Assembly: GCA_003224235.1 (NCBI GenBank) | Contig: QHYU01000167.1 | Location: forward strand, 1-40,767 | From: Acidobacteriota bacterium | GTDB taxonomy: Bacteria > Acidobacteriota > Terriglobia > Acidiferrales > UBA7541 | Direction: 5' to 3' | Length of the DNA stretch: 40,767 bases | Part shown: one piece after another, positions 5,397 through 27,135 of the stretch | How positions within the stretch are numbered: position 1 is the first letter of the stretch | How the letters are laid out: each line of letters starts with the position of its first letter | Position numbers and translations under genes: made by a program | Notes under the pieces: model-generated | Databases searched by the model: none | What the model was told of the DNA's origin: nothing | What the model saw: the letters and a program-made list of their open reading frames with translations, nothing else

Positions 5397-5898
5397 CGAC
5401 ATACCGGTCTCCTCGGTCACCGACACCCAGGGCAACACCTACGTCATGGACGCCGGCTTCGTCGCGGCCCCGAACCGCCTCAACGTCTGGCGCGCATCGA
5501 ACATCATCGGCGGTGCGGCGCCCGTCGTTACCATCACCTTCGTGGCGAAAGAAGAGGCCACGGCGGTGGTGGCGGAATACAGCGGCCTGCTCAACGTGGC
5601 ACCGCTCGATCAGACGGCGAGCAACAATCAGTTCAACGCCACCTCCTACACCTCCGGGAATACCCCGCCGACGACTCAGGCCACCGAACTAGTGTTCGGT
5701 GTGCACGTGAATCGCACCGGCTTGGGTACCTGGACGCCTGCGGCAGGCTTCACCACGGTGCAGGAGCGGGACAACGTCACCAGCAAACACCAGCTGCAAG
5801 TGCAGGACAGAATTGTGACCGCGACCGGAGCGCAAGCCTCCACGGGTACGCACTCCACGCCTGTCACGATTACCAGCCTGGTTGTGACCTATAAATAA
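5356..5898 (+). pseudogene. Frame-shifted C-terminal module of the Ig-repeat surface protein
   Basis: This 180-residue frame closely matches the beta-rich module at 4101-4641 of the preceding gene: TLLVAIETN, APNRL.VWRASNI.GGAAPVV, LDQTASNNQFN, STGTHSTPVTITSL. It has no credible start (TTG, no Shine-Dalgarno) and no N-terminal linker, so it is the displaced end of the giant protein rather than its own gene. After the W-S-F-T-T motif the linker is 84 nt in module 1 but only 34 nt here (5328-5361), a net loss of 50 nt, which moves the frame. A ribosomal frameshift or an assembly error could still join the two parts. Confidence 0.7.
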
Positions 5899-5912
5899 GG
5901 CGAAGTAAAGAC

Positions 5913-5954
5913 TCAGCCCGAGGAACCCAGCATCCAGCGGGTTCCTCGGGCTGA
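5913..5954 (+). terminator. 16-bp perfect hairpin between the surface protein and the peroxidase gene
   Basis: The arms 5913-5928 and 5939-5954 are perfectly complementary (16 bp, GC-rich) around a 10-nt loop. The hairpin lies 14 nt after the TAA of the Ig-protein module and 56 nt before the next start. No U-tract follows. It could be a terminator that relies on other factors, an mRNA 3' stabiliser, or a partial attenuator for the peroxidase gene. Confidence 0.5.
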
Positions 5955-6010
5955 AAACAGAAGGAAGACGCAAAGATCGCGTGGGCTTTAACAATTCTTC
6001 GAGGTGAAAT

Positions 6011-8446
6011 ATGAAAGGGACTACCAGCTTGCAGCCGCGGATGAAGATGACAACCATCAGAATGGCCGTGGCCTTTCTCGCAGTGGCGGTTCTTGGCGCG
6101 GTGGGGATTGCCATCAACCAGGATTCCGGCGTTGCCCAAGCGCAATCGTTCATGCCGCCCGACCTGTTGCATGTGATTGATCCACTCTCGTCGCTGAAGT
6201 CGATTCCGGTTCCGGAACCGCGCAACATCGCCCGTTACATTAAAGACCGGAATGCCGCCATTGCCTTGGGCAAGGCCTTGTTCTGGGACATGGCGGTGGG
6301 CAGCGACGGTCAGTCTTGCGGGAGCTGCCACTTCCATGCCGGAGCTGACAGCCGGTCGAAGAACCAGCTCAACCCGGGCTTCCGCGCCGTGCCATCGGAC
6401 AATACATTCTCGAAGTTCAGCCGGAATGGCGGCGGTCCCAACTATCAGTTGAAGGCGGCGGACTTTCCGTTCCACCAGCTGGCTGATGTGAACAACCAGA
6501 ATTCGGCGGTGGTGTTCGACACCAACGACATCAGCTCCTCGGCCGGAGTGTTCAATTTCGCCTTCACGGCGGTTGCTCCCTTGGCCGCCAACAGTGCGAC
6601 CGACATCGGGACCATGGCCTCGCCTGACCCGGTCTTCAATGTTGGCGGGATCAATGTTCGTGGCGTGGAGCCGCGCAACACCCCCACCATGATCAATGCG
6701 GTCTTCAACCATCGCAACTTCTGGGATGGCCGCGCCCGCGCGGAATTCAACGGGGTGAACCCCATCGGGCAACTCGACCCCGCGGCGAAAGTGGCGCAAG
6801 TTCCCGCTCTCGGAGCGCAACCCGAAATGATCAGCCTCATTGACGGCTCGCATCCCGACCTGGCGCTCGATAACGCCTCACTGGCTTCCCAGGCCGTGGG
6901 CCCGCCGCTCAGCAACCTCGAAATGTCGTTCAACGGCCGGAACTTCGCGATCCTGGGCCGCAAGCTGGTGTCGCGGCGTCCGCTGGCGCAACAGTTGGTC
7001 GCAAGCGATGACAGTTCTCTGGGCCTGCTGAGCCGGTGGCCAGCCCAGGGCTTGAATACCACCTACAGAGACATGATTGCCGCCGCGTTCCAAAACGAGT
7101 GGTGGGATTCGACCTGGATGGCGCAGATTAACCCGGACAATAGCGTCACCTTCCTGCCTTCGGGGACAGTGGCCGCGTCCGCTCTGAGCAACACCTCTGC
7201 CTCTGCCAACCAGTTCCAGCTCATCGAGTCCAACTTCTCGCTGATTTGGGGTCTGGCCCTCCAGGAATACATGGCCACGCTGGTCTCTAACGACTCACGC
7301 GTGGACCGTTTTCTAGAGGGGCATCTGGACGCCCTGACCGCCCAGGAGCAGTTGGGCATGGATGTCTTCCGCCACAAAGGCCGCTGCATCCGCTGCCATG
7401 GTGGTCCGGAGACGACCAACGCCAGCGTGAGCAATATCGTGGATGGTCTTATTATTCCGGCAGAACTTCTCGAACACATGTTCATGGGCGACGGAAACTT
7501 CGCCGTCTATGACAACGGGTTCTACAACACCGGGATGCGGCCATGCGCAGGTCTTCAGCCCAATGGCCAGCAGGGTCTCTGCGATGACCTCGGCGTCGGG
7601 GCCTCGATCGGACCGCTGAATTTGCCACTCTCCAACGCCCGGCTGCAACAGATGCCGAATAGCCCAGTTACTCGTGTCGAGTTTGTCGGCCCGACTAACC
7701 GGATCGTCGCGGACGGTGCATTCAAGACCCCCGGACTCCGCAACGTCGAGCTGACCGCTCCCTACTTCCACAACGGCGGTATGCTGTCGCTGGAGCAGGT
7801 GGTGGAGTTCTACAACCGCGGCGGGGACTTCGCCAACTTCAACATGAACAACCTGGACCTGGACATCACTCCACTGAACCTGACGGCCGATGAAAAGGTT
7901 GCGCTGGTGGCGTTCCTCAAGGCCCTGACCGACGAGCGCGTGCGTTACGAACAAGCTCCCTTTGACCATCCGGAACTGTTCGTTTCCAACGGCGCGATTG
8001 GGGACCAGAAGCGCGTCCTCAGTGACGGTACGGGCAAGGCCATCATGGACACGCTGCATGTTCCACAGACAGGGAGGGTCGGCCGGACAGCCCCAGCTGC
8101 CAACTTCCTGCACACGCCTCTTGTGCCGCCGGTCTTGTGGGCAAGTAACCCCACAATGATCTTTACGGCCTCCGCGAGTGCGGCTACCAAGCCGGCCGGG
8201 CAAGTGTTGAACATCCGGAACCTGGGAGAAGGCCAACTCTCCTGGACCCTCGCTGGGACCCAGCCGTGGTTGTCGTTCACCCGCACCAGCGGTGTGGCCC
8301 CGGCAAGCCCGGCTCAGGACACGACCCTGACAGTAAATGCTTCCGGTATGGCCCCCGGCAGCTACATGGACACGGTCACCATCACGGCCCCCGGTATCAA
8401 GAACTCACCGATTCAGATTACGGTGAGACTGGTGGTCAAGCCATAA
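6011..8446 (+). CDS. Secreted di-heme cytochrome c peroxidase-like protein with C-terminal BACON-like domain
   Basis: An 811-residue exported protein with an N-terminal hydrophobic segment (about 17-35) after a basic start. Two c-type heme motifs are visible, CGSCH at 103-107 and CIRCH at 459-463, matching the bacterial cytochrome c peroxidase/MauG fold in which two hemes transfer electrons to peroxide or a protein substrate. It is much longer than classical CcpA (~330 residues), with a large insert between the hemes and a C-terminal ~110-residue beta domain (about 700-811; SWTLAGTQPWLSF) resembling BACON/Ig-like carbohydrate- or mucin-binding modules. The start is set by GAGGTG about 6 nt upstream of ATG. 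It lies downstream of the giant Ig protein on the same strand, separated by a strong hairpin. Peroxidase versus MauG-type substrate oxidation cannot be decided from sequence. Confidence 0.85.
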   Translation: MKGTTSLQPRMKMTTIRMAVAFLAVAVLGAVGIAINQDSGVAQAQSFMPPDLLHVIDPLSSLKSIPVPEPRNIARYIKDRNAAIALGKALFWDMAVGSDGQSCGSCHFHAGADSRSKNQLNPGFRAVPSDNTFSKFSRNGGGPNYQLKAADFPFHQLADVNNQNSAVVFDTNDISSSAGVFNFAFTAVAPLAANSATDIGTMASPDPVFNVGGINVRGVEPRNTPTMINAVFNHRNFWDGRARAEFNGVNPIGQLDPAAKVAQVPALGAQPEMISLIDGSHPDLALDNASLASQAVGPPLSNLEMSFNGRNFAILGRKLVSRRPLAQQLVASDDSSLGLLSRWPAQGLNTTYRDMIAAAFQNEWWDSTWMAQINPDNSVTFLPSGTVAASALSNTSASANQFQLIESNFSLIWGLALQEYMATLVSNDSRVDRFLEGHLDALTAQEQLGMDVFRHKGRCIRCHGGPETTNASVSNIVDGLIIPAELLEHMFMGDGNFAVYDNGFYNTGMRPCAGLQPNGQQGLCDDLGVGASIGPLNLPLSNARLQQMPNSPVTRVEFVGPTNRIVADGAFKTPGLRNVELTAPYFHNGGMLSLEQVVEFYNRGGDFANFNMNNLDLDITPLNLTADEKVALVAFLKALTDERVRYEQAPFDHPELFVSNGAIGDQKRVLSDGTGKAIMDTLHVPQTGRVGRTAPAANFLHTPLVPPVLWASNPTMIFTASASAATKPAGQVLNIRNLGEGQLSWTLAGTQPWLSFTRTSGVAPASPAQDTTLTVNASGMAPGSYMDTVTITAPGIKNSPIQITVRLVVKP

Positions 8447-15621: not shown

Positions 15622-18300
15622 ATGGCTCAGCCCGCACCGCAGTCAGTGGGCCCGCGTGACGCTGATCTGAGCGGCACAACTGTGGGGCGCTTCGCCGTCC
15701 GCGCCCGGCTGGGAAAGGGCGGGATGGGCGAGGTGTACCGTGCTTACGATACAGCACTGAAACGCCCAGTTGCTTTGAAACGGATCACGCCGCGCCTTCA
15801 GTCCGACGAGAATTACCGCCGACGGTTCCTGCACGAAGCCCAATGCGCCTCCGGGCTGACCGACCAGCACATCGCCGGTTTGTACGACGTGCTCGAAGCC
15901 AACAACGAAGTCTTTTTAGTGATGGAGTATGTCGAAGGAGTGACGCTCCGCCAGCAGCTTCAGCGACCCATCAGCATCGAGAAGCTCCTGGGGATCGCGG
16001 TGCAATGCGCCGCAGCACTGGTGGCCGCGCACGAGCGGGGTATTGTCCACCGCGACCTGAAACCTGAAAACATCATGCTGACTCCTACCAGCCAGGTGAA
16101 GATCCTCGATTTCGGAGTGGCCAAACAGTTGCCGCCCGCCGAGGTCACCGCCACGACGGAAACTGTCAATGGCGGGAGCGGCTTGGCCGCCGGCACACCT
16201 GCTTACATGGCACCAGAAGCTCTGCTGGAAAAAGACACCGATCCCCGCGCGGACATTTTCTCACTGGGGGTTATTCTCTACGAAGCAGTGAGCGGGCGTC
16301 ATCCGTTCCTTGCGGGCAGCTTCATGGCCACAAGCGACCGCACTCTACACGAAGTCCCGCCGCCGCTCACCCGACTGAACCCAAAGGTTCCCGCCGAGCT
16401 CGAACGCATTGTGGCCAAGATGCTGGCCAAGAATCCGGACGAGCGCTACGCTACAGCGGCGGATCTGCTGGTGGACCTGCGCGCGGTGCAGCGTACCGTG
16501 ACGTATCCGACCCCGTTGCCCGCGCGGGATGACTCCACTAGTGGTGCGCGAGGATGGATCAGTCGCAATAAAGGGAAGATTTTCGTTGCCGCGCTGGGGC
16601 TTCTGCTGGTGATCAGCATTGGTTTGCTGTCGCAGGTGCGGCAGCGATTCCACTGGTTCGACAAGGCCATTGCGGGGCCCAAAAACGTGGCGGTGCTGCC
16701 TTTCCAGGCCATTGGCGGCGCACCCGAGAACCAAGCCTTCTCTGATGGAATCACGGAAGCCCTGACCGCGAAGCTGACGCAATTAACCGCTACGCATCAG
16801 TTGCAGGTGGCTCCTGGCCGGGAAGTCCGCGCGCGCCGCATCTCCGGCCCCGAGGAGGCGCGCAAGGAACTGGGCGCAAGCTTGATTCTGGAAGGCACAG
16901 TGTACCGCTCGGGGAACACCGTACGCGTGAACTACGCGCTGGTGGACACTAGCACCAGACGGCAAATCCGCGCCGGGACGATCACCGCGGATGCCTCTGA
17001 TCCGTTCGCCGTGCAGGACCGCGTGGCAGATGGCGTGGTGCGAATGCTGGAGCTGGAGCTGAATCCGCAGGAGCGCCGTGCGCTCCAGGTCCACGGCACA
17101 CAGGTCGCCGTCGCTTATGATTTCTATCTACAAGGGAGCGGCTACTTGCAGAATTACGACAGACCCGAGAACATTGAAAATGCGATCAACGTATTCGAGC
17201 GGGCGCTCAGCCTTGATCCCAACTACGCCCTGGCCCATGCGGGCATTGGTGAGGCTTACTGGAAGGCGTTCGAAAGCAGGAAAGAGACCCAGTGGATCGA
17301 CCCCGCCCGCAAGGCCTGTGAACGCGCCCTGGCCCTGAATGACAAACTCGCTGAGGCCCACATTTGCTTAGGAACTCTGCACAACGGCATCGGACAGTAC
17401 GAGGCTGCGGTCGTGGACTTTCAGAAGGCGCTTGAAACCGAGCCGACCAGCGACGCCGCCTATCGAGGTCTGGCGGAGGCCTACGAGCGCCTGGGCAACT
17501 TAACCGACGCCGAACGCACTTATCGAGAGGCCATCGAACTGCGACCCCATTATTGGGCGGGCTATCACTGGCTAGGCAAGTTTTACTTTCATCGGGCGCG
17601 CTACCCCGAAGCTGCGGAGATGTTTAAGCAGGTTGTGGCACTTGTCCCCGACAGTTTTCTCGGGTACAGCAGCCTGGGCGCACTGCTCCACCTGATGGGG
17701 CGCACCGATGAGGCTATTGCTGATTTCCAAAAATCCTTGGCCATCAAGCCTACCTACTTTGCCTACTCGAACCTGGGAACTCTCCTATTCTTTCAGGGCC
17801 GATATGGCGAGGCCGTACTTATGTTCGAAAAGGCTGCCGCGCTGGCACCAAACGATTACGAAGTGCAGAGGAACCTTGCCGATGCCTACCGTTGGGCGCC
17901 TGGGCTGGCCCAGAAGGCTCCGCCCGCGTATCGGCGAGCCATCGAACTAGCCCAGAACCAACTGCGGGTCAACCCTCGGGACTCGACGGCCTACAGTATC
18001 CTAGCTATCTGCTGGGTCAAGCTGGGCGAGAAGAACAAGGCGCTCGAAGCCATCACTACAGCACGCCGTGAGTCACCGGGCGACGTAGCTATTTTGTCTA
18101 ACGCGGTGCAGGTTTATCACCTCGTTGGGTTGCGGCAGCGCGCGCTGGAAACACTTGCCGCGGCGGTCCGCGGCGGCTACTCTCTGGCCGAAATCCATGC
18201 TGAACCCGAGTTAGCGGGGCTGCGTAGCGACCCGCGCTACCCGAAGATAGTCAGCGACGCCGCTTCCAGCGGAATCAGTTCCCCAGGGAAACAAAATTGA
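15622..18300 (+). CDS. Membrane Ser/Thr protein kinase with TolB-like and TPR extracytoplasmic region
   Basis: An 892-residue PknB-type kinase. The kinase domain (residues ~23-290) is complete: the glycine loop GKGGMGEVY (31-39), ATP lysine Lys53 in VALK, HRDLKPEN (143-150, catalytic Asp145), DFG (163-165) and APE (197-199). One transmembrane helix (about 319-338) separates it from an outer region with a TolB-N/FlgO-like domain (about 355-480, NVAVLPF...) and about ten TPR units (490-880). Such kinases phosphorylate cytoplasmic proteins in response to signals sensed by the extracytoplasmic part. The substrate is unknown. A cupredoxin-like gene follows 12 nt downstream, and an FHA-SpoIIE phosphatase lies convergent beyond it. 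Confidence 0.9.
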   Translation: MAQPAPQSVGPRDADLSGTTVGRFAVRARLGKGGMGEVYRAYDTALKRPVALKRITPRLQSDENYRRRFLHEAQCASGLTDQHIAGLYDVLEANNEVFLVMEYVEGVTLRQQLQRPISIEKLLGIAVQCAAALVAAHERGIVHRDLKPENIMLTPTSQVKILDFGVAKQLPPAEVTATTETVNGGSGLAAGTPAYMAPEALLEKDTDPRADIFSLGVILYEAVSGRHPFLAGSFMATSDRTLHEVPPPLTRLNPKVPAELERIVAKMLAKNPDERYATAADLLVDLRAVQRTVTYPTPLPARDDSTSGARGWISRNKGKIFVAALGLLLVISIGLLSQVRQRFHWFDKAIAGPKNVAVLPFQAIGGAPENQAFSDGITEALTAKLTQLTATHQLQVAPGREVRARRISGPEEARKELGASLILEGTVYRSGNTVRVNYALVDTSTRRQIRAGTITADASDPFAVQDRVADGVVRMLELELNPQERRALQVHGTQVAVAYDFYLQGSGYLQNYDRPENIENAINVFERALSLDPNYALAHAGIGEAYWKAFESRKETQWIDPARKACERALALNDKLAEAHICLGTLHNGIGQYEAAVVDFQKALETEPTSDAAYRGLAEAYERLGNLTDAERTYREAIELRPHYWAGYHWLGKFYFHRARYPEAAEMFKQVVALVPDSFLGYSSLGALLHLMGRTDEAIADFQKSLAIKPTYFAYSNLGTLLFFQGRYGEAVLMFEKAAALAPNDYEVQRNLADAYRWAPGLAQKAPPAYRRAIELAQNQLRVNPRDSTAYSILAICWVKLGEKNKALEAITTARRESPGDVAILSNAVQVYHLVGLRQRALETLAAAVRGGYSLAEIHAEPELAGLRSDPRYPKIVSDAASSGISSPGKQN

Positions 18301-18312
18301 AAAGGAGGAAAT

Positions 18313-18633
18313 ATGGCCACACCTAAGAGAGAACCCCTACGATGCCACGAGATACATGAGGTTAGTATATCCTTTAATGAAGGCAAATTCGAATATGGGC
18401 CCAAAGGTAACCCCGTGCACGCAAGCCAAGGAGATTGCATACGGTGGATCTCGGACAGAAAGTTTGCAGTTCATTTTCAGAATATATCACCTTGCGACGG
18501 GGTGGATTTCTCCGACGGTGAAAACACGGGGAAGGTCACCGAAACTGCTCCGAGCGGCAGCTACAAGTACATCGTGGCTGTGGAGCATGCGGGTCGCATC
18601 TTTATCGACGACCCTCAAGTCATCATCCCGTAG
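18313..18633 (+). CDS. Small cupredoxin-like protein coupled to the kinase gene
   Basis: A 106-residue protein starting 12 nt after the kinase stop, behind a near-perfect AAGGAGGA site, so almost certainly in the same operon. The pattern (GDCIRWISDRKFAVHF, then GSYKYIVAV and RIFIDDPQVIIP) suggests a single-domain beta sandwich like the cupredoxin fold. No signal peptide is visible, and the usual His-Cys-His-Met copper ligand spacing is absent, so copper binding is doubtful. It could be a regulatory or substrate partner of the kinase. It was placed by fold resemblance only; I cannot name the family. Confidence 0.7.
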   Translation: MATPKREPLRCHEIHEVSISFNEGKFEYGPKGNPVHASQGDCIRWISDRKFAVHFQNISPCDGVDFSDGENTGKVTETAPSGSYKYIVAVEHAGRIFIDDPQVIIP

Positions 18634-18847
18634 CTAAGCCGCAGGCGACGCAGAGAATGGGTGCGGCGCATCTTCGCCCACGGCTTTGTTGGCGAAACTC
18701 AGACGTGCAGCGGAGCGGCGATAGTAGCTTGCGCGAGTCCGCTGTCTTGGCTAGGCATTGCTCAGCAAGGTAACATTCCCCGTCTTGTGTAGGCTTCGGC
18801 AAGAGTCGGGAGCGCGCCCAGATTGGTTTCGGACCAGGTTTCATGAT

Positions 18848-20554
18848 CTATGTCCCGCCCGCTCGCGCCTCCACAGCCTGTGCGGCGCCTCGATAGCGGA
18901 CCAGGAGCAGGGTCACATCATCGGCTTGGCCAGCGCCGCAGGTGAACTCGACCACCGCATTGAGGATGTTGCCTTGCAACTCTTCGAGCGGTGCGCTGGC
19001 GTGCCGCGCCACCACGTCCTTCAACCGCGCTGTGCTGAATTCCTCGTCCACTGGACTCTTGGCCTCGGTGACGCCGTCGCTGAACAACACGAGGGTGTCG
19101 CCGGGCTGCAAGACGAATGCCGAGCTCTTAAATGTGGCATCCGGGAGGAGCCCTACCGGCAAGCATTCGGCGGGAAAGGCAGACTCCGCTCTGCCGTCGC
19201 GGAGGAGCAGGGGAGAGGGGTGGCCGGCGTTGATGAATTCAAAGCGGCCGGCGGTGTCGAGGATGCCGAAGAACACCGTGGCATAGCGTTCCACCCGGGA
19301 GTGAGCGCAGAGGAAGCGGTTGACGTGCGCGAAAACGTCCGCGGCCTGCTGGCCGACGGCCAGGCCGCTAAGCGCGCCCTGGAGCATGGTGGTCACCAGC
19401 GCCGCCCCAAGCCCTTTACCGGAGACGTCGGCGATGATGAAAGCGGTGCGATTCGAGCCCAACTCGACCACGTCGAAGTAGTCCCCACCCACGGTCAGGC
19501 AGGGTTGGTTGATGCCGCTCACCTGCAAGTGAGGCCAGCGGGGAAATTCACGAGGGAGCAGCGCCTGCTGGATATCACGCGCGATGGTGAGTTCTTGCTC
19601 CAGGCGTTGCCGCTCGCGTTCGCGCTCGACCAGTCGCGCATTGTCGATAACGCTGGCAGCTTCCACAGCCAGGGCATCGAGGATCTGCCGCTCCAGGCCG
19701 GAAAACGCCGCCGGCTGCCTGCTATCGAGGTAGAGCACTCCGAGGAGTTCTCCGCGGGGTGTCTCGGAAGCATTCTCGACTTCGCGCTGGGCCATGGTAT
19801 ATAGGGGAATCACGACCACAAAACGGAGCTGCTGCGCGATGATGCTCTGCGCGGCTTTCAGGTCCAGGGCGCCGGCCTGCTCAACGTCTTCGGTGACCAG
19901 GGCGCGGTGCTGCTCGAGCGTGGCGCGAATGGCGGTCTGGCTTGGCTCGAGTCCCTCGGTGGGGAGGCTGCGCGCGCCGCGCTGCCGGGCCAGGCGCACG
20001 CGCATTCCCCCGGTGGAGGCCGGTTCGAGTAGCAAGCCGCGGTCGGCATCGGTCAGCGCGATGGCGTGGTCCACCATCGTGCCCAACACGGCGTCCAGCG
20101 GCAGATGCGAGTGCAGCAGGGCCGTGGCCTCCAGCAACAGGCTCAGCTTGCGCAGACCTCCCGCGCCAGACTCGGCCGTGCTCAGCTGCTCCATCCGGGA
20201 AAGAAGCTGTGGGAGCGATTCGGTACCTTGGCCGACGTGGAAGATCAGTTCGTACGAGTCGGGGAGGCCGAAGTTGATCGTATCGCCATCGCGCAAGGGC
20301 CGCGAGTCCACTCTCTCGCCGTTGATGAACAGGCCGCGGCGCTGCCCGCGGTCTTGCAGGCGAAAGTCGCCTTTTTCGTACACCAACGCGGCGCATTCCC
20401 GCGAGATCCGCCGGTCGGGAAGTTGAAGGTGATTGCCGGTCTCGCCGCCGCGGCCGATCAGGAAGGGCGTATGGGCTACGCGAACCACTCGGCGGCTGCC
20501 ATCAGGCCCGATCAATTCCAGCACAGCCTCGGGAATGATCTGTGTATCCGTCAT
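18848..20554 (-). CDS. FHA-GAF-SpoIIE (PP2C-type) Ser/Thr phosphatase, RsbU-like
   Basis: A 568-residue cytoplasmic signalling protein. Domains in order: FHA (about 25-105; FLIGR, RRISRECA and a GLFINGE loop), which normally binds phosphothreonine; GAF (about 130-310); a charged coiled linker (about 310-335, ERERERQRLEQELTIARDIQ); and a SpoIIE/PP2C phosphatase (340-560) with the metal-site motifs GGDYFDVVEL, IADVSGKG, NAGHPSP and FSDGVTEA. It probably dephosphorylates an anti-anti-sigma factor or kinase targets. The FHA domain makes the convergent kinase at 15622 a plausible upstream partner, by inference from position. No clear Shine-Dalgarno precedes the ATG. Confidence 0.9.
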   Translation of the reverse strand: MTDTQIIPEAVLELIGPDGSRRVVRVAHTPFLIGRGGETGNHLQLPDRRISRECAALVYEKGDFRLQDRGQRRGLFINGERVDSRPLRDGDTINFGLPDSYELIFHVGQGTESLPQLLSRMEQLSTAESGAGGLRKLSLLLEATALLHSHLPLDAVLGTMVDHAIALTDADRGLLLEPASTGGMRVRLARQRGARSLPTEGLEPSQTAIRATLEQHRALVTEDVEQAGALDLKAAQSIIAQQLRFVVVIPLYTMAQREVENASETPRGELLGVLYLDSRQPAAFSGLERQILDALAVEAASVIDNARLVERERERQRLEQELTIARDIQQALLPREFPRWPHLQVSGINQPCLTVGGDYFDVVELGSNRTAFIIADVSGKGLGAALVTTMLQGALSGLAVGQQAADVFAHVNRFLCAHSRVERYATVFFGILDTAGRFEFINAGHPSPLLLRDGRAESAFPAECLPVGLLPDATFKSSAFVLQPGDTLVLFSDGVTEAKSPVDEEFSTARLKDVVARHASAPLEELQGNILNAVVEFTCGAGQADDVTLLLVRYRGAAQAVEARAGGT

Positions 20555-20686
20555 CGGCGCACAGGAGGCGGAGAAATCTTATCACGGCGCACAAACGAGG
20601 GAGGGCCTTAACCAGGCCGGAAGGGCAGAGGGGGACCCCCGGGCGTGAATCGGAAGCCCCGCTCGGATTCAGACTCGAGTTCCGAA

Positions 20687-21103
20687 CTAAGTTTTGGGTT
20701 TAGTGGCTTTAGATTTTTCGGGCGCCATACCTGGAGCTTCGCCGGTGGACTTAGGTTCCAGAACCTTCACACGGCGGGCGATTTTCTTGCCGTTCTCCTC
20801 ATCGTAGTAGACGATGACTTTGGCGTCCTTGGCCAGGTTGCCCTGCACCTTGGTTTCGGCAGTGCGCGCAAAAGTCCACTCACTCTTCTTCTTTCCCACC
20901 GCCTTGGCGATCACCAAGCTGGTGTCGGTCGTCGCCACAAGCTTGCCGGTGGCTTGGTGGGCCTTAGCTTTTTCCGTAGCTTTGGTGGACGGCGTAGCTG
21001 TTTTGCCCGTGGCCTTTGCAGGCGCCGTAGTTTGCGCCGCCCAGCAAGTACAGGCCAACAAAAAAAACACAGCAGTTAACAGAACCCATGTCTTCTTGCT
21101 CAT
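20687..21103 (-). CDS. Small exported Lys/Ala/Thr-rich protein
   Basis: A 138-residue protein with a clear signal peptide (KKTW then a hydrophobic run, cleavage after CWA). It continues with an Ala/Thr/Lys-rich low-complexity linker (about 25-48) and a compact domain (about 50-120: GKLVATTDTSLVIAK, EWTFARTAETKV, VIVYYDEENGKKIARRVKVLE) resembling small OB/DUF5666-like periplasmic domains. I chose the ATG at 21103 over the longer frame because GAGGAGGG precedes it and the signal peptide begins there. The role is unknown. It is divergent from the antiporter, with a 142-bp shared upstream region. Confidence 0.75.
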   Translation of the reverse strand: MSKKTWVLLTAVFFLLACTCWAAQTTAPAKATGKTATPSTKATEKAKAHQATGKLVATTDTSLVIAKAVGKKKSEWTFARTAETKVQGNLAKDAKVIVYYDEENGKKIARRVKVLEPKSTGEAPGMAPEKSKATKPKT

Positions 21104-21245
21104 CGGATTTGCCCTCCTCTGGCTGGAGCGCATCATCCCTCTAAACTCTGGAAGCGTCAAGCGATCCGAGGCAATATTGTGCCATGCGGCACATTGGACT
21201 TGCCACCTGTCGCCCAGAAACGCTACAAGTCACGGTGAAAACGCC

Positions 21246-22712
21246 ATGAGCACCCCATCCGCTCGAAAGCGATATTTCTGTTTCTTGTCCGCAGCACTCC
21301 TGCTAGGCGGTTATTCCGCCACTGCTCAGCGGCTCATGGGGGCCACCCAAGCCGTGCCACCGGCGGGCCATGGTGATCCCGTGGCGCCAATCCTCTTGGC
21401 GCTGGTCCTGATTGCTCTCGGGGCGGCCCTAGGTGGACGGGCGATGAGCCGCCTCGGCCAGCCTGCAGTATCGGGGGAGCTGTTGATCGGGATGCTGGTG
21501 GCCAACCTCGGTTATTACTTTCATGAGCCGGTGCTCACCCTCCTGCGCGAGGGCGAGACCGTCCGGAGAATCCTGGATATGGCCCTGGTGCTAAACGTCG
21601 GCTTGGGCCGCGCCGCGCAGCTGGTGTTGCCCGCCGGGGGGCACGCCGATCGCCTGGCGCAAATCCTGAGCGGCGAGTCAGGAATGGCAGCGATTTCCGT
21701 CTATGCCTTTGTGGACCTGCTCTCCCGCATCGCCATCATCGTGTTGATGTTCCTGGTGGGTCTGGAAACCAGCGTCAATGAGATGCGGCGCGTGGGCAGG
21801 ACGGCGCTGCTGGTCGCGGCGCTCGGCGTCGTAGTTCCTTTTTTGCTGGGTCTCGGGGCGATGGCTTTGCTGCAACCCGAGGCGCCGCTGGGCACGCGCC
21901 TCTTCATCAGCGGCATTCTGACCGCTACCAGTGTGGGCATCACCGCGCGGGTGTTGCGCGATCTCCAGCAGAGCTATCGTACCGAGGCCAAGATCATCCT
22001 CGGCGCAGCGGCGATTGACGACGTGCTCGGGCTCCTGGTGTTGGCCGTGGTCAGCGCGCTGGTGGCGACGGGCACGATCGGTTGGCTGCGTGTGGCGGGG
22101 ATTGTGACGAAATCGGCGGTGTTTCTGTTCGGCTCGGTTGCCATCGGGCTGTGGATCACCCCGCGAGTGGTGAAGCGGCTCGCGCGGCTCGAGATCGAAA
22201 ACCTGAAGCTGCTTTTCGGTCTAGGGTTCGCCTTCTTATTTTCTTGGCTGGCAAACGCGTTCGGCCTGGCCACGGTCGTCGGCGCTTTCGCCGCAGGGCT
22301 GGTGCTGGAAGGTTTCTTCGACAAAGAGCTCCAGGGCCACTCGCTGCGCGATCTGCTCTCCCCGCTCGAATCGCTGATTGTGCCGGTCTTCTTTGTCCTG
22401 ATGGGGATGCAGGTGAAGTGGGAAACCTTGGCGGACAGGAAGATCGTCTTGATTGCGGCGGCGCTGACACTGGCGGCGATTCTCGGCAAAGTGGTTTCCG
22501 GGCTGGGGTGCAGCCGTAAACTCAGCCGCCTGACAGTGGGCATCGGGATGATGCCGAGGGGTGAGGTGGGGCTGATTTTCGCCGGCATCGGAAAAGGGCT
22601 TGGAGTGGTCAGCGATGGAGTCTTTTCCGCCGTGGTGATTATGGTGATGGTCACCACGCTGCTGACGCCGCCCCTGCTGAAGCTCACCCTGCAGCGTCAC
22701 CCGCCGGATTGA
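21246..22712 (+). CDS. CPA2-family cation:proton antiporter (KefB/NapA-like)
   Basis: A 488-residue membrane protein with an N-terminal signal-like segment and about 12 hydrophobic helices. CPA2 landmarks include GQPAVSGELLIGML in the early helices, MFLVGLE, the TATSVGITARVL repeat and GAAAIDDVLGLLVL, whose paired acidic residues form the ion site. It exchanges Na+ or K+ for H+ across the inner membrane. A short loop rich in Gly and Ala lies between helices 3 and 4 (about residues 115-150). There is no C-terminal RCK/TrkA-N domain, so it is a short-form antiporter without that regulation. I chose the ATG at 21246 because the long upstream frame runs antisense through the neighbouring gene. 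Confidence 0.88.
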   Translation: MSTPSARKRYFCFLSAALLLGGYSATAQRLMGATQAVPPAGHGDPVAPILLALVLIALGAALGGRAMSRLGQPAVSGELLIGMLVANLGYYFHEPVLTLLREGETVRRILDMALVLNVGLGRAAQLVLPAGGHADRLAQILSGESGMAAISVYAFVDLLSRIAIIVLMFLVGLETSVNEMRRVGRTALLVAALGVVVPFLLGLGAMALLQPEAPLGTRLFISGILTATSVGITARVLRDLQQSYRTEAKIILGAAAIDDVLGLLVLAVVSALVATGTIGWLRVAGIVTKSAVFLFGSVAIGLWITPRVVKRLARLEIENLKLLFGLGFAFLFSWLANAFGLATVVGAFAAGLVLEGFFDKELQGHSLRDLLSPLESLIVPVFFVLMGMQVKWETLADRKIVLIAAALTLAAILGKVVSGLGCSRKLSRLTVGIGMMPRGEVGLIFAGIGKGLGVVSDGVFSAVVIMVMVTTLLTPPLLKLTLQRHPPD

Positions 22713-22759
22713 GGCATGCTTCGGCGTTCCCACCGCTTCTCAGTCGCCGGCTGGACTGT

Positions 22760-23650
22760 TTAGGATGGAGTCCGTGCAGTTGCCGCTCGCCGGGCGATGT
22801 ATTCGGCCGCATATGCCGAAAAGGCTTTCTCGAGTCGTTGCGTGATCGGCCCGGGAGCAGAAGCCCCGGGGCGGCCAATCGCGCGGCCTTCGATCTCGCC
22901 CACGCCCAGCAGGCAGCGGTTGGTCGAGGAGATGAAAACCTCGTCCGCCGCGAACAAGTCTTCGGGGCGAAGCGCCTGCTCGACGATAGGCACGTTGGTG
23001 TCGGGGCCGATCTCGAGCAGGATGGCGCGAGTGACGCCTTCGAGACATCCGGAGTTGAGCGGCGGGGTTAGCACCTTGCCTCCCCGCACGCAGAAGATAT
23101 TCGCCGCGGTGCACTCGGCCACCTCGCCGCGTTCATTGAGCAGCACCACTTCATCGAACCCCTGCTGCTGCGCTTCGCCGAGGCTCCACACGTTCACGAG
23201 CCACGATGTCATCTTGGTCCCGGCAAGCGGCGAAGCGGCGTGGCGCCCATGCTCGCGCAAGGCCAGGCGCGCCGGCTCACGATAAGCGGGCAGGCCGGCC
23301 GTATACATCAGTAAGTCCACCTCCGGAAGCGGTTCGTCGCTTTGCCAGAAGCCAGTCTTATTGTAGAGGATGTAGATGCGCGCGGTGCCTTCCCTTACCT
23401 GATTGGCGCGCAGCAACTCGCCCAACTGGGTGCGCACCTTAGTGGCATCGAACGGGAAGGGCATGCGCGTGCGCGCGGCGTCCTTCTGCAAGCGCCGCCA
23501 GTGGCGTTCGTAGGCAAAGGCTTCGCCGTCGAAAATCTGCAGAGTGGTGAATATTCCGTAGCCGGAGAGCAGGCCCGCTTGGCCGGGTGATAGCCGGACG
23601 TTTTCGATGGGCACCAAGCGGTCATTGTGAAAGATGTGGCGATGGATCAT
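22760..23650 (-). CDS. Class IV PLP aminotransferase (BCAT / D-amino acid aminotransferase / aminodeoxychorismate lyase type)
   Basis: A 296-residue fold-type IV PLP enzyme. The Schiff-base lysine is Lys146 in GTKMTSW, and the cofactor-binding Glu179 lies in EVAECTAANIFCV. N-terminal SPGQAGLLSGYGIFTTL and C-terminal GCLEGVTR and SSTN motifs agree with IlvE/Dat/PabC enzymes, which cannot be separated with confidence here. Length is normal for the family. It is convergent with the antiporter. No clear Shine-Dalgarno precedes the ATG, and upstream lies only a decayed groES. Confidence 0.88.
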   Translation of the reverse strand: MIHRHIFHNDRLVPIENVRLSPGQAGLLSGYGIFTTLQIFDGEAFAYERHWRRLQKDAARTRMPFPFDATKVRTQLGELLRANQVREGTARIYILYNKTGFWQSDEPLPEVDLLMYTAGLPAYREPARLALREHGRHAASPLAGTKMTSWLVNVWSLGEAQQQGFDEVVLLNERGEVAECTAANIFCVRGGKVLTPPLNSGCLEGVTRAILLEIGPDTNVPIVEQALRPEDLFAADEVFISSTNRCLLGVGEIEGRAIGRPGASAPGPITQRLEKAFSAYAAEYIARRAATARTPS

Positions 23651-23717
23651 GGCCGTATTCTAGCGCGGGTACCGCGTTCTTTGGAAGGAAACGACGCAGC
23701 ACCAGCATTCGTTCATA

Positions 23718-23739
23718 GGACAGGCATTCGGGCCTGTCC
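23718..23739. repeat. REP-like short palindrome
   Basis: Arms GGACAGGC (23718-23725) and GCCTGTCC (23732-23739) are perfectly complementary around a 6-nt loop, in non-coding DNA. It has the shape of a dispersed extragenic palindrome, but only one copy is present here. Confidence 0.35.
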
Positions 23740-23820
23740 ACTCAAACGCCGGTGGGATTCTGGCGGGTGGCAGTAGCCTGGGCCATGCGAGAACGTTAGG
23801 ATCTTGATGTCGTTGGCGGT

Positions 23821-24019
23821 CTATTTGCCGAACAAAATCCGATCGGGGTTCACATCGAGGGGGATCGGATCCCTCGGCCCTCTTCGATCGTGCCGGCTCC
23901 AACGGCCATCACTTCGCCCTCCTGGGGCTTCTCTTTGGCCGTTTCGGGGATGATGCCCTTCGCGTTTTCTTCCTCTTCCAGCCTCCTTACCAGGACGCGG
24001 GAGTCGCGTGCACAGTCAT
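23821..24019 (-). pseudogene. groES: Decayed groES (co-chaperonin 10) remnant
   Basis: On the - strand, GGGAGG precedes an ATG at 24019, but that frame stops after ten codons. A shifted frame reads VLVRR then [17 protein letters not shown] and [13 protein letters not shown], an unmistakable GroES core. After about 23880 a third frame reads [14 protein letters not shown], the next GroES segment, and stops at TAG (23821-23823). So two frame changes have occurred and the last ~25 residues of GroES are missing. No groEL lies adjacent. An intact groES must exist elsewhere. This is a second, non-functional copy or a relic of a moved operon. Confidence 0.8.
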
Positions 24020-24051
24020 TTCTCTAACCTCCCGTTATTCTATGACGACAT

Positions 24052-24726
24052 CTAAGGGTGAAAAGTGTTCCTGTTCTTCTGTCGCGCCACTTCCAGGTTG
24101 TCGGCTTCTCTCTTCTGGCGATCGCTTTCTTTCTGCAGATCCTCTCGCCCCTCCAGCTTCACAGATTCGGCAATCGCAGCATCGGCCTGTCCATCCAGCC
24201 GTTTCGAAAACATGACAAGCCCAAAGGAGTTCAGCAAGCTGGAACGGAAAAGGTTTATCGAGTACTGCGAATCTTCCCAGCGGGCGATGACCTTTTCTGT
24301 GGACCGATACAGCTCGTTCGTCGGGAAGCTGATCTGAGCTTCTGGCCTCGTTGTAGTTCCGTACTTGGTCGAGACGGCTTGTATCATGTCCTCGGCCGTT
24401 AGCCCTTGTGTGGCGTGCCGATCATAGGTCACCAAAATCTTGTACAGCTCGCCATTGTAGAAGCTGAAGAAAACCTGCCGCACGGAGTCGGCTTGGAGCG
24501 AAGAGTCAGAAGAGTCTCGCGGCCACCACGCCAACTCTTGAATGACTGCCGGGTGCTTGTGGATCAGCTTTGTGTGGAGCGGTTGTGAATCAATCTGCTT
24601 CGATAGTTCGACCAAGCTCATTCCGAACGAAAAGTTCCGATACTTGGAAAGGTCCTGCCCGTAAATCAAAGGAGCCGAAAGCAGGATCATAACGACCGAA
24701 ATGACCACACGGCGCATCATTTTCAT
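24052..24726 (-). CDS. Exported protein of unknown function with charged coiled C-terminus
   Basis: A 224-residue protein with a signal peptide (MKMMRR plus a hydrophobic run, cleavage near IYGQ). The body (about 25-180: FSFGMSLVELSKQID, SVRQVFFSFYNGELYKI, EDMIQAVSTKYG, ALARW-like IARWED) resembles a diffuse group of acidobacterial exported proteins with no assigned function. The tail (about 195-224) is highly charged and probably alpha-helical. AGGGAGA lies about 8 nt before the ATG. The decayed groES begins 32 bp downstream on the same strand. Confidence 0.7.
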   Translation of the reverse strand: MKMMRRVVISVVMILLSAPLIYGQDLSKYRNFSFGMSLVELSKQIDSQPLHTKLIHKHPAVIQELAWWPRDSSDSSLQADSVRQVFFSFYNGELYKILVTYDRHATQGLTAEDMIQAVSTKYGTTTRPEAQISFPTNELYRSTEKVIARWEDSQYSINLFRSSLLNSFGLVMFSKRLDGQADAAIAESVKLEGREDLQKESDRQKREADNLEVARQKNRNTFHP

Positions 24727-24755
24727 GTGAATGTCTCCCTCGAAAAATTAAAGAT

Positions 24756-25077
24756 TCAGATCCAGGGCTCGCTTTCGAATCGCAAGGATTCCGGCAAAAG
24801 GGCGGCTTGCTCGATCAGCATGGTTCCCGTGTTGGTGGTGTCTTCCATTAGCGTCTCCGGCGTTTGCAGTGGCGCTCAAGACCGCCACGCGGCTCTCGGG
24901 CTTGGATCTGTTATCGACGCCATAGTAAGTTTCGATTTCCTGTTTGATGAAAAATAAAGCCAGGACAACCAGAATGGCGCCCGCGCAAACCACAAAGTCC
25001 AGGCTTGCGGAGGGGTGCCAGAACACCGTCAGGAGCAACGCCGTAATGGAAACCCACTTCATGATTTTCGTGACCAT
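24756..25077 (-). CDS. Small membrane protein with an apparent frameshift in its C-terminal half
   Basis: The first ~75 residues (ATG at 25077) hold two hydrophobic helices (about 7-20 and 27-44, ending FFIKQEIETYYGVD). In that frame the tail becomes His/Arg-rich and ends at 24748. The next frame, from 24848, reads MEDTTNTGTMLIEQAALLP then ESLRFESEPWI and stops at 24756. That looks far more like genuine protein, so a one-base change near 24850-24880 is likely. Alternatively the second part is a separate 30-residue peptide. The ribosome site is poor. Function unknown. Confidence 0.5.
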
Positions 25078-25124
25078 GGGCTAGCTCGTTTCTCCGTCCG
25101 ATTTCCCATTACCGGAGAAGTGAG

Positions 25125-25145
25125 GGGGCGGACTTAGCCCGCCCC
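25125..25145 (-). terminator. GC hairpin downstream of the ABM gene
   Basis: GGGGCGG (25125-25131) pairs with CCGCCCC (25139-25145) around a 7-nt loop, 26 nt beyond the ABM stop codon on the - strand. It has no U-tract, so it is a candidate only. Confidence 0.3.
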
Positions 25146-25171
25146 GCACCGAACGAAAAGACCTGCAAGCT

Positions 25172-25492
25172 CTAGGTCGCTACGGCAGCGGCGATCTTGT
25201 GGAAGGTCGAGTTGGAAACCTCATAGGTTTCAACCTGAGGAGTTCCCTCAACCACTCCCGCCAGGATCTTCGTCACTTCTGGATAGGTCCCGCGGTTGTA
25301 AGCTTCCGCGTTCTCTGCTCTTTCCCACAAACTGATTCCGAATGCTTCCCTTCCGCCCGGAGCAACGAACGTGATTTCGTCCTGGAACCCTTTCTGTTTT
25401 CGAAGCAGGGGAATGATTTCCTTCTCCAGCCTCTGGGTCAACTCGGCAGCGCTATTGAGCTTCAGATGCATGGACACTCTGCGTGCAAACAT
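25172..25492 (-). CDS. ABM-like (antibiotic biosynthesis monooxygenase fold) small protein
   Basis: A 106-residue single-domain protein (MFARRVSMHLKL..., then LEKEIIPLLRKQKGFQDEI, ISLWERAENAEAY and a C-terminal TYEV) matching the dimeric alpha+beta-barrel/ABM superfamily of small cytoplasmic proteins. Members include monooxygenases and heme-degrading or stress proteins. Function cannot be assigned from fold alone. I chose the ATG at 25492 because AAGGAGAG lies 6 nt before it. It is transcribed from a near-consensus promoter shared back to back with a now-dead XRE copy. The same 5' end (12 identical residues) reappears at 26022 as a remnant. Confidence 0.8.
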   Translation of the reverse strand: MFARRVSMHLKLNSAAELTQRLEKEIIPLLRKQKGFQDEITFVAPGGREAFGISLWERAENAEAYNRGTYPEVTKILAGVVEGTPQVETYEVSNSTFHKIAAAVAT

Positions 25493-25581
25493 GTCACTCT
25501 CCTTGGTTCTCATGGGCCAAGGGGAATTCACATAACCTCCGTTAGTTCAGACAAACTGGAGACTCCCTTAGTCCGCTAACC

Positions 25582-25610
25582 AAAATAGGTGAATTAACTT
25601 GCTCTGTCAA
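25582..25610 (-). promoter_or_regulatory. Near-consensus promoter of the ABM gene
   Basis: On the - strand TTGACA (25610-25605), a 17-bp spacer and TATTTT (25587-25582). The predicted start is near 25575. The opposite-direction boxes of the same module (TTGCTC 25599-25604 and GATTAT 25622-25627) abut it and are weakened relative to copy 2. Confidence 0.6.
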
Positions 25611-25664
25611 GCGGAATTTTAGATTATTTTCCATACTAATCTAATTCAGTTAAGCGAGCGGAGG

Positions 25665-25856
25665 CACGCGTAGATGTTTGTTTCGTGATCAAACAGCGGC
25701 TGGAAGAATTGGGGCTTGAGCAGATCTGGCGGCTGGCGCCGAAGTGACAGAGTCCTACATTCCAGTTGCTGACCCCCCAAAAAGCGCTACAGCAGCTTTC
25801 GCAATTGGGTGACTTCCAGCGCTGGGGAGCTTTCAACAGCGCAAGGAAGAATTCGG
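25665..25856 (+). pseudogene. Dead 5' copy of the XRE regulator gene
   Basis: Aligns with the first ~75 codons of the regulator at 26200 (VIKQRLEELGLEQ against VVKQRLEELGVEQ). The Shine-Dalgarno GGAGG (25660-25664) is kept, but the GTG start is destroyed by a deletion. Four bases (AGAG) are missing after CAG at 25723, and TGA at 25745-25747 then closes the frame. Homology fades after about 25856, so the rest of the gene was lost or never duplicated. Confidence 0.8.
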
Positions 25857-26022
25857 CGGGTGGGTTAGTAGTGCCTACGACGAGATGGGAAGGTTCGGAG
25901 AACCCTTCTCGTGAGTTGGTCCGCAGCACCCCCTCGGCCTGTTCCTTAATCCCCTTCGTATGCATTGGAAATCTCTTCTCTTCTTGTAGTTTCAGATGCA
26001 TGGAGACTCTGCGTGCAAACAT
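25857..26022 (-). pseudogene. 5' remnant of a second ABM gene
   Basis: The ATG at 26022 sits behind a preserved AAGGAGAGG site and encodes MFARRVSMHLKL, identical to the start of the ABM gene. The following residues diverge, with at most weak resemblance around EGFSEPSHLVVG. The open frame runs to 25636, but its later part is simply antisense to the dead XRE copy. Its -10 box is decayed (CATTCT in place of TATTTT), so expression is doubtful. Confidence 0.65.
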
Positions 26023-26430
26023 GTCCTCTCCTTGGTTGTCATGGCCAAGGGCCGATTTCAGATAACCACTTTGGTTTAGATTATCTTATGACCCTCTCAG
26101 TCCTTAATCAGAATGGATGAATTAACTTGACCTGTCAAAAAGAATCTGGGATTATTTCCAAGGTTTGATCTGATCCAGTTAATCGAGCGGAGGTACTCTG
26201 TGGATGTTTCTCTAGTGGTTAAACAGCGGCTGGAAGAATTGGGGGTTGAGCAGAGAGATCTGGCGGCTGCCGCCGAAGTGACGGAGTCTTACATTTCCCA
26301 GTTGCTGACTCGCAAGAAATTGCCCCCCGCGCCTGACCGAACAGATATTTACGGCAAAATGGAAAAATTCTTAAAGCTCCCGAGCGGTAAGCTTTCGAAG
26401 CTGGCTGACATCCAGCGCAAGGAAGAATTG
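25991..26430. repeat. Copy 2 of the tandem duplication (dead ABM 5' end, divergent promoters, live XRE 5' end)
   Basis: Partner of 25461-25856. Here the XRE side is intact (GTG start, good +-strand promoter) and the ABM side is a remnant with a decayed -10 box. Confidence 0.85.
26127..26155 (+). promoter_or_regulatory. Promoter of the XRE regulator with overlapping palindromic operator
   Basis: TTGACC (26127-26132), a 17-bp spacer and GATTAT (26150-26155). The -35 box lies inside the palindrome TTGAC-CT-GTCAA (26127-26138), which also carries the - strand -35 TTGACA. A dimeric repressor bound here would block both directions. Autoregulation is inferred. Confidence 0.55.
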
Positions 26431-27135
26431 AAGAGAAATCTGGAGGACCCACCCACGCCCTTGTTTAAAGAAGTTCGAGAGTTGATTCTCCGCAAGTGCG
26501 CACGCGACAAAGAAAAACAAATACGGGCGATTTTTGAGAAGCAACCCTTCGGCGAACTTGAACGCCTCGTCACCCAGAAGCTTTTGGACGTGGTCAAGAG
26601 AGTCGCCAAAGAAGAATTGCAAAGTGAAAACTGGCTCCACCTGGTGGCTCGACTCAGCGGCCGAAGCTATGAACAGATGCGAGTCATCATCCTCGACTTC
26701 CTGGACACGGATGTCTTCAACGTGTCAGTTGAGAACTGCGTTGCCTTCCTGGATCCGCTGATTGAATCCTGGGATATCGACCTAACGACCTTTGGTATGG
26801 AAATTGTGTTGAACCGGAGACTAGCCCCAGGGCACCCTAAGAAATTTGAGTTTGTCGAAAGGGAACCTGACCAACTTGAGGAAGAGCCGGGGCTCAAACA
26901 ATTCCTTCATGACCCTTCCCTAAGCGGCGATGCTACCGACGAGGAAATCGATTTCCTAAAGAGGCTGAGGTTCAAGGGAAAACGGCCCGCCCCGCTCTAT
27001 TATTACCGAGAATTGCAGAACCTCAGAGACCCGCTCCATTTTCGCGCGCTCATGACCCAGACCCTGCGGAAGAAAACATTGGGGCAGTCCCAGCCGGAAG
27101 GATCAGTCGCCCCGATGCATAAATATCTGGCTTAG
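26200..27135 (+). CDS. XRE-family transcriptional regulator with long C-terminal region
   Basis: A 311-residue DNA-binding protein. The N-terminal HTH_3/XRE domain (about residues 4-60: VKQRLEELGVEQRDLAAAAE then VTESYISQLLTRKKLPP) is followed by a ~240-residue charged, helical domain with no family I can name (KEVRELILRKC near 90, Tyr-rich PAPLYYYRELQNLRDPLHFR near 275). The start is GTG at 26200 with GGAGGT 5 nt before it; no upstream ATG is in frame. It sits between the duplicated promoter module and the PA2779-like cluster, so it may control itself, the ABM gene and the cluster 145 bp downstream. In Pseudomonas aeruginosa the PA2778/PA2779 genes also adjoin an XRE-type regulator gene (PA2780), as I recall. 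Confidence 0.85.
   Translation: MDVSLVVKQRLEELGVEQRDLAAAAEVTESYISQLLTRKKLPPAPDRTDIYGKMEKFLKLPSGKLSKLADIQRKEELKRNLEDPPTPLFKEVRELILRKCARDKEKQIRAIFEKQPFGELERLVTQKLLDVVKRVAKEELQSENWLHLVARLSGRSYEQMRVIILDFLDTDVFNVSVENCVAFLDPLIESWDIDLTTFGMEIVLNRRLAPGHPKKFEFVEREPDQLEEEPGLKQFLHDPSLSGDATDEEIDFLKRLRFKGKRPAPLYYYRELQNLRDPLHFRALMTQTLRKKTLGQSQPEGSVAPMHKYLA

Follow-up and report, generated by a model that had tools for sequence, protein, structure and literature searches.

Divergent switches built around XRE-family regulators and heat-shock regulons of the repressor type are both known kinds of bacterial control system. The module described here resembles autoregulated XRE/cI-type switches and the C-proteins of restriction-modification systems in that a regulator faces its target across back-to-back -35 hexamers and inverted repeats, and it resembles HrcA/CIRCE, HspR/HAIR and RheA in pairing a single regulator with a conserved operator before chaperone genes and with probable autoregulation. 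With the tLST island, a patchy and probably transferred locus, it shares a small heat-shock protein, a diguanylate cyclase and other stress genes; the tLST review makes no mention of XRE, GroEL, monooxygenase or Acidobacteria. A search of the openly accessible literature returned no description of a module combining XRE, ABM and chaperone genes.

The window is a stretch of 40,767 nucleotides from an Acidobacteriota bacterium, within which the initial annotation had proposed, at 25461-26430, a tandem duplication followed by the loss of opposite promoter directions in the two copies. We conclude instead that this region is probably what is left of two adjacent modules, both complete at one time and set in the same orientation, each with an ABM gene and an XRE gene diverging from a shared control region.

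Two copies of a divergent ABM/XRE unit

The features of the region are as follows.

24748-25077, minus strand: third gene behind ABM1, a small membrane protein starting MVTKIMKW, recognized by DNA matches behind other ABM genes
25172-25492, minus strand: ABM1, whole ABM-fold protein of 106 aa from the list of open reading frames, the target gene kept by copy 1
25493-25669: control region of copy 1, with back-to-back -35 hexamers TTGCTC and TGTCAA at 25599-25610, the ABM -10 at 25582-25587 and the XRE -10 at 25622-25627
25532-25547, 25576-25593 and 25636-25653: operator-like repeats of copy 1
25670-25853, plus strand: XRE1 pseudogene, delimited by alignment with copy 2
25854-25922: unassigned 70-bp segment between the XRE1 remnant and the third-gene remnant
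25923-25986, minus strand: third-gene remnant of copy 2, a leader and start codon (25965-25963), identified by its match to locus L087
25987-26022, minus strand: ABM2 stub, codons 1-12, fused directly to the third-gene leader
26023-26199: control region of copy 2, with -35 hexamers TTGACC and TGTCAA at 26127-26138, the ABM -10 at 26110-26115 and the XRE -10 at 26150-26155
26062-26076, 26104-26121 and 26165-26182: operator-like repeats of copy 2
26200-27135, plus strand: XRE2, intact XRE-family regulator of 311 aa with a GTG start, identified by HTH_3 and by intact relatives

In a gapped local alignment of 25458-25853 with 25988-26429, 325 of the 390 aligned columns (83%) were identical, and the score of 388 lay far above the maximum of 40 reached in 200 shuffles. 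Independent repeat detection recovered direct repeats, at offsets of 528-534 bp, that run from the 5′ end of ABM through the intergenic region to the 5′ end of XRE, so the homology of two copies about 530 bp apart is confirmed. The promoter boxes were likewise found as quoted: copy 1 has a whole ABM gene, starting at 25492, behind TTGACA-17-TATTTT and an XRE side reading TTGCTC-17-GATTAT, and copy 2 has a whole XRE gene, at 26200-27132, behind TTGACC-17-GATTAT and an ABM stub behind TTGACA-17-CATTCT. The decay described for the first XRE copy also held up; GTA replaces GTG at 25670, and beyond it come the loss of 4 nt, a TGA in frame and internal deletions of larger size, with the final recognizable XRE codons at 25794-25853. 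Each copy has thus retained one gene, ABM in copy 1 and XRE in copy 2, as first described, but the second block has no clean left boundary inside ABM: 25923-25993 resembles DNA found downstream of ABM elsewhere. Some 130 bp, including this leader DNA of the third gene, separates the left end of copy 2 from the copy 1 unit. Scanned against Rfam and for tRNA genes, the window gave no matches.

For the ABM label, which rests on members of the family alignment and on a structure model, PF03992 was matched weakly by 18 of 32 relatives (best E-value 1.6e-4), and searches of Pfam and NCBIfam with ABM1 itself yielded no significant family. The AlphaFold2 model of ABM1 (pLDDT 86), a single chain, has the roughly 100-aa alpha/beta-barrel (ferredoxin-like) fold expected of the dimeric ABM superfamily, and its best PDB matches are ABM monooxygenases (E-value 4e-7); the relatives are 105-106 aa long. 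We therefore retain the label. XRE2 carries an N-terminal HTH_3-type domain by both sequence and fold, as expected for the XRE family: its HTH_3 match (E-value 3e-4) falls narrowly short of the cut-off, a relative in L161 passes it (5.7e-5), and the likeness of its moderately confident model (pLDDT 71) to HigA, ClgR, SinR and DdrO is confined to the N-terminal HTH. The C-terminal domain of about 200 aa matches no known family, and intact relatives of XRE2 are up to 82% identical to it.

On the far side of the third gene, 24052-24726 encodes a secreted protein, conserved and about 225 aa long, with the motifs QDLSKYR.F..GMSL and ELTWWPP, without a match in Pfam or NCBIfam and with relatives at 30 of 80 XRE loci. 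The third gene itself also stands behind ABM on two other contigs of this genome (C37 and C234) and on contig C617 of genome G029, at 73-77% DNA identity.

Control regions and promoter directions

We found and scored 73 copies of the control region. The control region contains three inverted repeats with the half-site TTAACC/GGTTAA and a spacing of about 6 nt, located in the ABM leader, around the ABM -10 and near the XRE start. Half-site positions that are not part of a promoter hexamer show 90-100% conservation. Under the whole promoter model, control region 1 scored 103.2 bits and control region 2 scored 106.0 bits.

If each copy had kept a single promoter direction, the abandoned direction should be the weaker one, and in one respect it is: the XRE -35 of copy 1 lacks two conserved bases, the sole fit to the prediction of reciprocal decay. 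The ABM -35 is an intact TTGACA in both copies. Among loci whose left gene, ABM or Hsp20, is intact, 56 of 58 have this hexamer, as do all 10 loci that lack a recognized whole ABM or Hsp20 gene. As for the ABM -10 of copy 2, CATTCT agrees with the consensus at three of six bases, yet agreement at three or fewer is normal at loci with intact ABM or Hsp20 (26 of 58, several of which start with C). Nor is the TTGC-type -35 of copy 1 unusual, as TTGCTT serves five loci with an intact XRE and TTGAC is absent from the XRE -35 at 21 of the 50 intact-XRE loci. Where XRE has been lost, its -35 and -10 boxes are slightly weaker (Mann-Whitney p 0.016, uncorrected for kinship), and TTGAC occurs at the XRE -35 of 29 of 50 intact and 7 of 18 lost loci (Fisher p 0.18). 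Half-scores computed against 31 other control-region copies ran opposite to the prediction, with copy 1 worse on the ABM side (92.9 bits versus 107.8 for copy 2) and copy 2 worse on the XRE side (47.5 bits versus 54.1 for copy 1). The two copies are therefore not degraded in different promoter directions, and the reciprocal decay of promoter boxes put forward in the initial annotation is not upheld.

Ancestral arrangement and neighborhood in relatives

Relatives were searched in 61 related genomes and then in GTDB contigs. A single intact divergent ABM/XRE pair, its genes about 170-200 bp apart, was present at dozens of loci, both within Acidobacteriota and beyond that phylum, as predicted if the ancestral control region was undivided, and a divergent ABM accompanies XRE at 62 of 80 XRE loci across these groups. 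The XRE relatives at 70-82% identity come from assemblies labeled Acidobacteriota, Rokubacteria, Methylomirabilota/NC10, Gamma- and Betaproteobacteria, Nitrospirae, Gemmatimonadetes and Krumholzibacteria, all of these being labels of metagenome-assembled genomes. Recurrent neighbors at the 80 XRE loci are GroES (22), a GlsB/transglycosylase-associated membrane protein (22), GroEL (19), Hsp20 (17), a PAS-GGDEF protein (12) and an RRM protein (9). The gene clusters shared between these neighborhoods showed no ClpG and no MerR-like gene. In the XRE tree the phyla are mostly clustered, with 9 label changes against a minimum possible of 6, a pattern suggestive of cross-phylum transfer and no stronger than that because the sequences are metagenome bins. 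An uncharacterized conserved protein of about 150-180 aa with the motif KFNSLEIT.V.SKRFLG (768-1316 of L167) also occurs in the XRE/ABM neighborhood, with relatives at 18 loci.

Adjacent modules in the same orientation recur at four loci (L118, L119, L120 and L121), and among the relatives it is the XRE copies that decay, with ABM or Hsp20 left standing. L120 (genome G066, contig C178) has two adjacent complete modules in which both ABM genes are whole, one XRE is whole and the other carries 5 stops; it is a parallel, less eroded case that may picture an intermediate before decay. Over 3797-8225 of this locus (16000-26798 of the contig) we observed three ABM and two XRE genes, that is, the two adjacent divergent modules and an orphan.

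Origin of the locus

The DNA to the left of the ABM2 stub bears most directly on how the two copies arose. Positions 25923-25993 match the region following ABM in L087 at 76% over 68 nt (BLAST E-value 2e-8), with weaker matches in L085, L086, L080, L079 and L077. In L087 this DNA comprises the leader and the start codon of ABM's downstream neighbor and reads GAAACTACAAGAACACAGGAGATTTCCAATG, against GAAACTACAAGAAGAGAAGAGATTTCCAATG in the window; 34 of the 39 leader nucleotides are identical. Since a third-gene leader stands beside the ABM2 stub, copy 2 once held a complete ABM gene and a third gene, and the deletion joint lies near 25986/25987. The DNA after ABM1 does not align with the leader. 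A 5-nt microhomology, GAAAC, at the joint was considered and dropped, since no more than 6 of 49 relatives share it at the ABM end.

A tandem duplication of about 530 bp, carrying an ABM 5′ end, a promoter and an XRE 5′ end and followed by subfunctionalization, would account for aligned copies 528-534 bp apart that each keep one gene, and the damaged XRE -35 of copy 1 and the slightly weaker XRE boxes at loci that lost XRE are in its favor. The left end of copy 2, however, is not joined directly to the copy 1 unit but carries a third-gene leader unlike the DNA after ABM1, which excludes a simple partial tandem duplication with its breakpoint in ABM and largely refutes the model as to origin. 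The box types that are normal at intact loci, the half-scores in the wrong direction and the TTGACA preserved in both copies and at all 10 loci without a recognized whole left gene also count against the model, and we regard it as improbable. Less improbable, though still unlikely, is an old duplication of the entire unit of ABM, third gene and XRE from a single ancestral module with later decay of both copies. The two copies are among each other's best DNA matches (80%), their sisterhood was not rejected by the AU test (p 0.28-0.37), and adjacent same-oriented modules at the four loci named above offer a precedent. Against this, copy 2 is equally similar to L133 (80%), the identity of the copies is no higher than that to modules of other genera, their third-gene leaders do not align together, the promoter trees separate the copies by a 90/96 split, and their ABM sides belong to different groups of the tree. 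The preferred reading is a pair of old paralogous modules that adjoin each other, rather than duplication of a whole module. It is very improbable, finally, that both control regions were kept as working parts, with copy 1 driving ABM1 and supplying an extra operator cluster that titrates XRE; the regions do score similarly (103 and 106 bits) and keep three operator-like repeats each, but ABM1 by itself accounts for the conservation of most of copy 1.

Under the preferred reading of two paralogous modules, an internal deletion in copy 2 would have brought ABM codon 12 directly against the next gene's leader, further deletions would have shortened the third-gene remnant and XRE1, and point changes with small deletions would have finished XRE1 off. 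An XRE protein acting in trans on many operator-promoter copies would make surplus XRE copies redundant and free to decay, and target genes would persist behind their own promoters. Here ABM1 is retained behind control region 1, and XRE2 behind control region 2. Chance rather than redundancy could be the reason for which gene each copy lost. The gene losses most likely represent ordinary deletion and decay of redundant copies.

A dispersed operator-promoter and a candidate XRE regulon

This genome holds the promoter in nine copies but has just two XRE genes that are intact, XRE2 and one on contig C91. The latter (L070, about 6590-7460) encodes 283 aa, 81% identical to XRE2, with TAG as its natural stop, and its upstream region is quite different, with no TTGAC-N-TGTCAA element. 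On contig C37 (L073, 96-4615), the promoter is followed on one strand by ABM, the secreted protein with the DLSKYR motif, GroES and GroEL, the XRE side having been lost, and on contig C234 (L069, 5976-6614) an Hsp20 gene (L069_6530) lies behind the operator-promoter without XRE. The operator-promoter heads Hsp20 genes in L077, L084, L085, L118 and L119 as well. A weak promoter copy on contig C219 (L246, 8259-8412) was seen to precede an apparent decayed XRE start.

Across the 61 genomes, the promoter and XRE occurred together in 15, the promoter alone in 1, XRE alone in 3 and neither in 42 (Fisher p 2e-10), an association partly inflated by physical linkage because many promoter copies adjoin XRE. 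Hsp20 in general did not track XRE across genomes (p 0.16). The conserved operator does stand before chaperone genes in genomes with XRE, as in heat-shock regulons under a repressor, and on this pattern XRE is probably a shared regulator acting in trans that governs a protein-stress regulon as well as its own gene, probably as a repressor. It would bind the TTAACC-N6-GGTTAA-like repeats that overlie the ABM -10, the 5′ leader of ABM and the start of XRE, repressing ABM and XRE until a protein-damaging stress. Because one such regulator would suffice for many targets, surplus XRE copies would decay as in copy 1, and the loss of XRE with retention of ABM or Hsp20 in relatives fits a redundant regulator of this kind. 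Whether the whole amounts to a soil-bacterial stress regulon spanning several phyla, in which one highly conserved XRE would act on ABM, Hsp20 and probably genes linked to GroES-GroEL by way of a portable operator-promoter cassette spread within genomes by copying, is a question on which we put the chances at about even.

Comparison with known systems

The locus is a case of ordinary genome decay and unsuitable as an example of promoter subfunctionalization; if the cassette reading is true, the window illustrates the collapse of redundant operator-promoter copies. The wider module, widespread and with a highly conserved control region, offers a concrete candidate, open to testing, for a regulator of heat-shock type in soil bacteria, Acidobacteriota among them, and since ABM genes occur here in a chaperone setting, it may help to explain the role of the poorly understood small ABM-fold proteins. 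Compared with XRE/cI switches and C-proteins, the promoter here is dispersed before different genes, the operators are predicted, and about 200 aa at the C-terminus of the regulator form an unassigned domain. HrcA/CIRCE and the MerR-type HspR/HAIR differ from a system that has an XRE-type HTH and TTAACC-N6-GGTTAA repeats and that includes an ABM-fold protein. The nearest described island is tLST, whose regulator is MerR-like, in contrast to the XRE-type regulator of the module described here.
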